38,613 nt of DNA, taken from contig WHTC01000007.1 in assembly GCA_009379795.1 (NCBI GenBank), positions 1-38,613 of the forward strand, in the 5' to 3' direction. Source of the stretch: Nitriliruptorales bacterium. GTDB taxonomy: Bacteria > Actinomycetota > Nitriliruptoria > Euzebyales > Egibacteraceae. Positions 8,282 to 25,185 of this stretch are shown one piece after another (position 1 is the first letter of the stretch; every line of letters begins with the position of its first letter). The translations under genes and the position numbers were made by a program. The notes beneath the pieces are model-generated. The model worked only from the letters and a program-made list of their open reading frames with translations. It was not told the origin of the DNA and did no database searches.

Positions 8282-9469
8282 TCAGAAGCGGCACTCCCCC
8301 GTGCCGACCGGGCTGTTGGCGGCGATCGCGGTCTGGACGTCAGGCGCGACCCGCTCGGCGGTGAGCGCGTACCCGGTTCCCGGTTCGGCGGAGGCGGCAG
8401 CGAATACCAAGCCCCCGACCAGGCCGTCGCTGGTGACGAAGGGGCCGCCGGAGTCGCCCTGCTGCACCGGTGCCGACAGCGTGAGGATGTCCCGAGGCAC
8501 CAGTCCCCGGCCATAGATGTCCCGCCCGACGGCCTCGCCCCGGGCGCGCACGGCGGCGGGCTTGACGACCTGCTGCTGCTGTCCGCCGGGATAGCCGAGC
8601 GTCGCGCCCGCCGTCCCGCGCTCCGCCGGCGTGCTCACGAAGCCGATCGGCGGGGCGGCGGCGCCAGGCGCCGAGAGCACGGCGAGATCCAGCTCGGGGT
8701 CGAACAGGATCGCGGTGGCGTCGTGCGTCCCCGCCTGGTCACGCACGTTCAGCACCTCTCCCCCGGCGATCACGTGGGCGTTGGTGACGACGAACCCCGG
8801 AGCGGTCACGAACCCGCTGCCCGAGGAGATGCCATCGCATCCCAACGACTGCACCTGCACCGTGCTGCCGGCCGCCGCCTGTTGCGCCGCCGCCACCGCC
8901 GCGTCACTGGGCGGGTCGACTGGCGGTGCGGTCGCGCCGCCGCCGATGCCGCTGAACACCTGGGGGAAGCCCTGCTCCTGCAGGTAGTTGCCCACCTGGC
9001 CGAACAGGTTCGGCGCCTGGGGCAGCGACTGCCCAAGCGCGGTCACGATGCGTGACTCCCGCACCTGCTGGGCGATCACCGGGACCGGCCCCTGCACCAG
9101 GGCCGAGGCGAGCAGCCAGACCACGAGCAGCAGCGAGATCAACCCGACCGCGATGCCGGCACCGCGGTCAACTCCGCCGACTCCGGCGCTGTGAGCCGCC
9201 GCCTGCATGCGGTTGCCCACGGCCACGCCGATCGTCTGCCCCAGCAGGATGAAGGCCAGCAGGACCACGAACGTGATCAGCGCGAGGTCCGTACCCGGCT
9301 GGTCGACGAACTCCGCGGAGATGCGCGGCGCCAGCGTCGCACCGAACAGCAGTCCCGCGGCCGCTCCACCGAAGGTCGCAACCTGCGCCAGGGCACCCTG
9401 GCGGTAACCGCGGATCGCCGCGGAGACCAGCGCGACCAGCAGGAGAACGTCAAGCAGGTTGTACGTCAT
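8282..9469 (-). CDS. MarP-like membrane serine protease (N-terminal CvpA domain plus C-terminal trypsin-like domain)
   Basis: N-terminal multi-TM MTYNLLDVLLLVALVSAAIRGYRQGALAQV; triad contexts FVVTNAHVIAGG, DPELDLAVLSA, QQGDSGGPFV. Confidence 0.9.
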   Translation of the reverse strand: MTYNLLDVLLLVALVSAAIRGYRQGALAQVATFGGAAAGLLFGATLAPRISAEFVDQPGTDLALITFVVLLAFILLGQTIGVAVGNRMQAAAHSAGVGGVDRGAGIAVGLISLLLVVWLLASALVQGPVPVIAQQVRESRIVTALGQSLPQAPNLFGQVGNYLQEQGFPQVFSGIGGGATAPPVDPPSDAAVAAAQQAAAGSTVQVQSLGCDGISSGSGFVTAPGFVVTNAHVIAGGEVLNVRDQAGTHDATAILFDPELDLAVLSAPGAAAPPIGFVSTPAERGTAGATLGYPGGQQQQVVKPAAVRARGEAVGRDIYGRGLVPRDILTLSAPVQQGDSGGPFVTSDGLVGGLVFAAASAEPGTGYALTAERVAPDVQTAIAANSPVGTGECRF

Positions 9470-9647
9470 GAGCCGGACGCTCCTCGTGCCCGCGCCATTT
9501 CGCTGGCCTCTCCTGATCGCCGCCTCGCTCGGCGGACACCCATGACCAGCGCGGGCCATGCGGTCCGACCTGGTCACCCTGGACGATATCCAGCGCGCGC
9601 CGCGACGGCTAAACGGACGGGATCCCGCACGTTCCCGGGAAGCCCAT

Positions 9648-10133
9648 CTATATCAGCGCGCAGATCTGGCCGTCGCTGGCGTGGAGCACAGCCCGCGCGG
9701 CGACCCGCAGAGCGCTGTGGTGCCGCTTGAACTGCTCGATCTCGTCGAAGGCCTCGGCCTCGGGCGAGCCGTTGACCGGCTGGTCCTCGAGCGCGGCGAG
9801 CTCGGCGTCCCAGTCGGTGTCCGCGGCCTCGTCCTTGAGGTGCATCGCCGGCGCCTGTTTCAGCGCCCGCTCCAGATCCTGGATCACCGTCACCACCACA
9901 TCGGTGGTGGTCCGCACCCCCGGCGTGGTGAGCAGGTGAAGGGCCTGCAGCTTGCGCATGGCCATCGCCATGATCAGCTGCGGGTCGCCGAGCTCAGCCA
10001 CGGCCGTGTCGACCCCGCGCAGGTCCAGCGTCACGTGCAGCGGAACCTCGAACCAATCACGCAGAAGTGTGAACAGCGCCTCGGCCGACGTCCGGGCGGC
10101 CAGCAGTTCCCTGGGCTTCGGTATCTCCTCCAT
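9648..10133 (-). CDS. Hypothetical protein, divergent from serB
   Basis: 161-aa ORF starting inside the palindrome at 10129-10168; no family recognised. Confidence 0.7.
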   Translation of the reverse strand: MEEIPKPRELLAARTSAEALFTLLRDWFEVPLHVTLDLRGVDTAVAELGDPQLIMAMAMRKLQALHLLTTPGVRTTTDVVVTVIQDLERALKQAPAMHLKDEAADTDWDAELAALEDQPVNGSPEAEAFDEIEQFKRHHSALRVAARAVLHASDGQICALI

Positions 10134-10168
10134 TGAACCGCAACGGTATACCGTTGCGGTTCAATGGA
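10129..10168. promoter_or_regulatory. 40-bp perfect palindrome spanning both start codons of a divergent gene pair; candidate bidirectional promoter/operator
   Basis: TCCATTGAACCGCAACGGTA|TACCGTTGCGGTTCAATGGA; reverse-strand ATG at 10133-10131 and forward-strand ATG at 10164-10166; symmetric TATACC on both strands. Confidence 0.85.

Positions 10169-24806: not shown

Positions 24807-24825
<19 letters not shown>
23893..24825 (+). CDS. RecB-family PD-(D/E)XK exonuclease-like protein with Cys-rich (Fe-S type) C-terminus
   Basis: LSFSRVDTYQQCPLRFRFAYLDKLPSEPSPHLSWGTSVHRAIE, GSIDHVARTDGGGIGIVDWKTSK (D...DWKTSK nuclease motif), SRLCDWCDFRSLCPAF. Confidence 0.9.

Positions 24826-25185
<360 letters not shown>

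Follow-up and report, generated by a model that had tools for sequence, protein, structure and literature searches.

A perfect 40-bp palindrome containing both start codons of serB and its divergent neighbour suggests two back-to-back leaderless promoters

A perfect palindrome of 40 bp, real and far beyond chance, separates serB from its divergent neighbour in the window, the whole stretch of 38,613 nucleotides that was analysed, and contains the start codons of both genes. From comparison with related genomes, it probably represents two leaderless promoters placed back to back, whose symmetry would most likely have arisen by template switching. The TAnnnT hexamers of the two promoters would then abut at the centre, each mRNA would start at most about 3 nt from its ATG, and the flanks would have been turned into exact inverted copies in this lineage, through template switching at a quasi-palindrome that already existed and was anchored by GTATAC at the centre and ATGGA at either end. 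A bound polymerase would exclude a second one, so that serB and the divergent gene would be transcribed alternately and presumably at similar basal rates. The features concerned are collected in Table 1.

Table 1. Positions of the palindrome, the divergent genes and their predicted promoter features in the window
Feature	Position	Strand	Basis or remark
Perfect palindrome, 40 bp	10129..10168	.	20-bp arms; single copy
serB, phosphoserine phosphatase with ACT domains, 412 aa	10164..11402	+	TIGR00338, E=1.1e-71; ACT and HAD Pfam domains
Conserved protein of no recognised family, 161 aa, predicted helical bundle	9648..10133	-	Homologues in 38/66 class genomes; 43 invariant columns in an alignment of 29 sequences; pLDDT 86 for the predicted structure
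Putative -10 of serB, TACCGT (TAnnnT)	10149..10154	+	9 nt before ATG; 20/30 serB genes
Putative -10 of divergent gene, TACCGT (TAnnnT)	10143..10148	-	9 nt before ATG; 20/29 orthologues
Predicted transcription start of serB, leader 0-3 nt	10161..10164	+	Hexamer position and published leaderless spacing
Predicted transcription start of divergent gene, leader 0-3 nt	10133..10136	-	Hexamer position and published leaderless spacing

The palindrome is carried by an actinobacterial MAG of 3.65 Mb in 511 contigs. Since the MAGs closest by SerB, among named relatives, are labelled Nitriliruptorales, Euzebyaceae and Egibacter, the genome should belong to or near the class Nitriliruptoria of the Actinomycetota. 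Both start codons lie at conserved N-termini: relatives have MDDATALLIT-like SerB N-termini, with Met-Asp in most close relatives, and the divergent protein begins with M[ED]xIPKP, Met-Glu or Met-Asp being found in most orthologues. This conservation speaks against true starts internal to the ORFs, an outcome that the first-pass annotation had allowed for. The 161-aa protein matched no family above cut-off in Pfam or NCBIfam and had no significant relative in the PDB by sequence or by fold, the best Foldseek hits (E 0.07) being helical bundles. In the other families of the class in which it occurs it is encoded away from serB, so that neither gene depends on being paired with the other. The next gene after it on the same strand (8282-9577) encodes a CvpA (colicin V production) domain fused to a trypsin-like protease. 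In one relative (G010:C37:203803-204308) a truncated divergent gene (residues 44-161) directly adjoins a C-terminal SerB fragment (residues 356-409), and it looks as though both gene starts and the entire intergenic region had been deleted. A search of the window for RNA families returned RNase P RNA alone (bacterial class A, 24807-25181 on the minus strand, 257 bits), distant from the palindrome.

The two self-complementary arms of the palindrome, TCCATTGAACCGCAACGGTA followed directly by TACCGTTGCGGTTCAATGGA, are joined with zero spacer. The ATGs of the divergent gene (10133, minus strand) and of serB (10164, plus strand) are symmetry mates inside it, 30 nt apart, and either arm holds a CCG-N3-CGG motif (10138-10146 and 10151-10159). 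The first-pass annotation had described a perfect palindrome with both start codons in it, ATGs mirror-placed at a separation of 30 bp and a CCG-N3-CGG subsite per arm, and all of this geometry was borne out. In a survey of 725 kb of readable sequence from the same genome (100 contig stretches, contigs below about 3 kb being masked) no palindrome was longer, and the next-longest two had 17-bp arms and were GC-rich, terminator-like stems. The palindrome is single copy in its own genome with up to 3 mismatches allowed, and a slightly relaxed 32-mer of it was not found in any of 29 further genomes of the order. The whole viral collection contained seven exact matches to a 17-mer of the palindrome, and a plasmid search gave a partial match only (E=6). 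A mobile or REP-like repeat occurring at many loci, which would have spoken against the earlier reading, was rejected because of the single genomic copy and the partial plasmid match.

By chance, about 6e-5 perfect palindromes with 20-bp arms are expected per 3.65-Mb genome at 70% GC. Some of the symmetry comes at no cost: the ATGGA/TCCAT outer ends are expected from coding alone, both proteins beginning with Met-Asp/Glu, and the TA...T of each -10 is likewise expected, so that 8 of the 20 arm positions are constrained anyway. Coincidence might draw on these positions, and an assembly artefact on the fragmentation of the MAG, but the 12 free pairs that are left all match (about 3.5e-7 by composition), with serB column frequencies the 15-nt arm has a probability of about 4e-9, and on either side lie different genes in the order seen in relatives, so that a fold-back join is rejected. 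Chance or artefact is thus a highly improbable explanation.

Leaderless genes of Actinobacteria are marked by TAnnnT at about 10 bp ahead of the start codon (PMC3160421, PMC3898074), and for both serB and the divergent gene such a hexamer is present and conserved. It ends 6-9 nt before the start in 20 of 30 serB genes (that of the window included) and at 11 nt in another, with only four further occurrences elsewhere within the last 40 nt; first-order resampling of the serB leaders (2000 times) gave a mean of 0.54 and a maximum of 4, as against the 20 observed. For the divergent gene, 20 of 29 orthologues carry it at 6-9 nt, frequently in the form CCGTATAGCCT, and in a sample of the genome TAnnnT is enriched 6-10 nt ahead of candidate starts. 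TACCGT is the window's only fitting hexamer on either strand, and its two copies abut at the dyad, each 9 nt from its ATG. No -35 element is apparent. These positions suggest that both genes are transcribed leaderless or near-leaderless from the shared palindromic region. The palindrome would reach from about -35 to +5 in either transcript and would thus give the two core promoters the same sequence.

The first-pass annotation had read TATACC as the -10, a register 2 nt off from ours: TATACC lacks the final T, and relatives, in which TAnnnT is kept in register while the bases preceding it vary (GATAGCCT, GGTAGCCT, GCTAGCCT), support TACCGT. In the latter register, transcription would be expected to start 2-5 nt nearer the ATGs than at the positions proposed earlier (10159 and 10138). 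Its broader idea, a symmetric promoter for two near-leaderless mRNAs, agrees with the TAnnnT positions and with the geometry in the sister genus; the single shared hexamer gives way to two that abut, and the operator, which is taken up below, gained no support.

The divergent pair is retained in the family, with a start-to-start spacing ranging from 27 to about 156 nt. In a tree of SerB and the divergent protein, the window genome groups with G011, from a sister genus, with 100% split support. G011 has the identical 30-nt spacing and the hexamers back to back (ACCGTA followed directly by TACGGT), but its perfect core is 12 bp only; its flanks are partly palindromic about the same axis (10/15 pairs, shuffle P about 0.018), and the arm sequence is not conserved there. 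Another relative, G008, has a 29-nt layout and an asymmetric core. Because G011 shares the 30-nt layout, this is probably older than the genus of the window genome; the compact layout appears to have been inherited and the long perfect symmetry to be lineage-specific. Upstream of the divergent gene at five loci (L124, L128, L131, L138 and L139), the conserved CCGTATAGCCT also has a TAnnnT-like sequence on the opposite strand (AGGCTATACGG), and the ancestral promoter may thus already have been capable of firing both ways.

The back-to-back geometry was also searched for more widely, as CAT-N9-ANNNTA-TANNNT-N9-ATG in 397 genomes of the phylum, 8-nt gaps being run in addition to the 9-nt gaps. 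At the 9-nt gaps 17 sites were found, mostly AT-rich matches, as against 12 for the reversed control, and a generally enriched class of such sites was therefore rejected. Of the 39 class genomes included, only the window genome and G011 have the exact geometry, in both at the serB locus. Two loci from other families, L268 and L283, show back-to-back hexamers between CAT and ATG.

How the symmetry became perfect can be approached from the same comparison. The homogenisation of inverted repeats and quasi-palindromes by template switching is documented (PMC7202029, PMC8604942), and the partial symmetry of G011 about the same axis is what would be expected of a quasi-palindrome precursor. Other divergent leaders match the arm about as well as other serB leaders do (6.6 and 6.25 matches, respectively), although G011 leans towards the divergent side (9 against 6). 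On present evidence the perfect symmetry is explained more economically by mutation, and template switching is the origin that we prefer. It seems unlikely, by comparison, that the symmetry itself has been selected, in which case SerB and the 161-aa protein would be held to equal, alternating expression by identical, mutually exclusive leaderless promoters, perhaps controlled by a dimeric regulator found only in the two genera.

A more conventional regulatory role could be that of an operator, bound by a dimeric regulator that would cover both -10s and control serB and the divergent gene jointly. Perfect dyad symmetry reaching beyond the hexamers would fit such a site, as would the fact that G011 is partly symmetric on the same axis although its sequence has changed. 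Matches to the arm across the genome, however, number 11 as against 18 for the reversed control, the core 18-mer is not enriched across the order, and no regulator gene was recognised among the flanking proteins scanned. The site thus neither recurs above control at other targets nor, given the different arm in G011, is conserved at the locus in relatives, and the operator put forward in the first-pass annotation is doubtful; if real, it may be the single site of its regulator. The palindrome might instead act through folding: in mRNAs started further upstream it would lock the start codon into a stem and leave leaderless mRNAs as the only ones translated, or supercoiled DNA might extrude it as a cruciform. 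In modelled RNA that includes the palindrome, the ATG is enclosed in an 18-bp stem (z -4.5), the single DNA strand is predicted to fold at -22.4 kcal/mol, and the start of the leaderless mRNA is predicted to be without unusual structure. Yet any perfect palindrome would fold in this way, which makes the fold a consequence of the symmetry rather than separate evidence, and its absence in relatives argues against a conserved function; a role of this kind is quite improbable.

If the leaderless reading is true, two genes have their promoters, start sites and start codons packed into 40 bp, and the locus would serve as a naturally occurring test of how two promoters with an identical core, facing opposite ways, compete for polymerase. 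Were template switching responsible, a single mutation event would have put an inverted copy of a working promoter onto the neighbouring gene. Symmetric divergent promoters are already known; what is unusual is that the symmetry is perfect, and this could reflect an accident of copying or a regulatory site.

Among known systems, the locus resembles the bidirectional promoters of Warman et al. (2021), which later papers of the same group (PMC10268837, PMC12825309) describe as a short symmetric -10 region between divergent genes at which the two polymerase orientations are mutually exclusive, with 18 bp as the commonest start separation and reciprocal -7/-11 positions. It is by analogy with these promoters that mutual exclusion is proposed for the serB locus. 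According to PMC10268837, the E. coli examples that were tested had a basal activity so low that competition did not matter, so that mutual exclusion may have little effect here unless one side is activated. Unlike in promoters of this type, the hexamers of the window abut and the symmetry spans 40 bp including both start codons. The hexamers share no -7/-11 positions, and so do not coincide reciprocally as at the 18-bp optimum, and the predicted separation of the starts, 25-31 bp (about 31 if they are at the ATGs), is at or beyond the upper limit of the 7-25 bp by which those papers define bidirectional promoters.

The locus is also like actinobacterial leaderless genes in having TAnnnT about 10 bp ahead of the start codon, and closely juxtaposed divergent promoters are reported to be common in M. 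tuberculosis (PMC3160421, PMC3898074). It differs from the usual leaderless genes in that two such promoters with the same sequence would lie back to back, an arrangement found for one among 80 divergent pairs sampled in the window's own genome. With quasi-palindrome correction (PMC7202029, PMC8604942) it shares a perfect inverted repeat where that of a relative is imperfect about the same axis; unlike in the documented cases, an inverted copy of a promoter would have resulted here, and the nearest comparison is a sister genus rather than a close ancestor. Leaderless and bidirectional promoters are both known, and the arrangement is best read as a variant of them.
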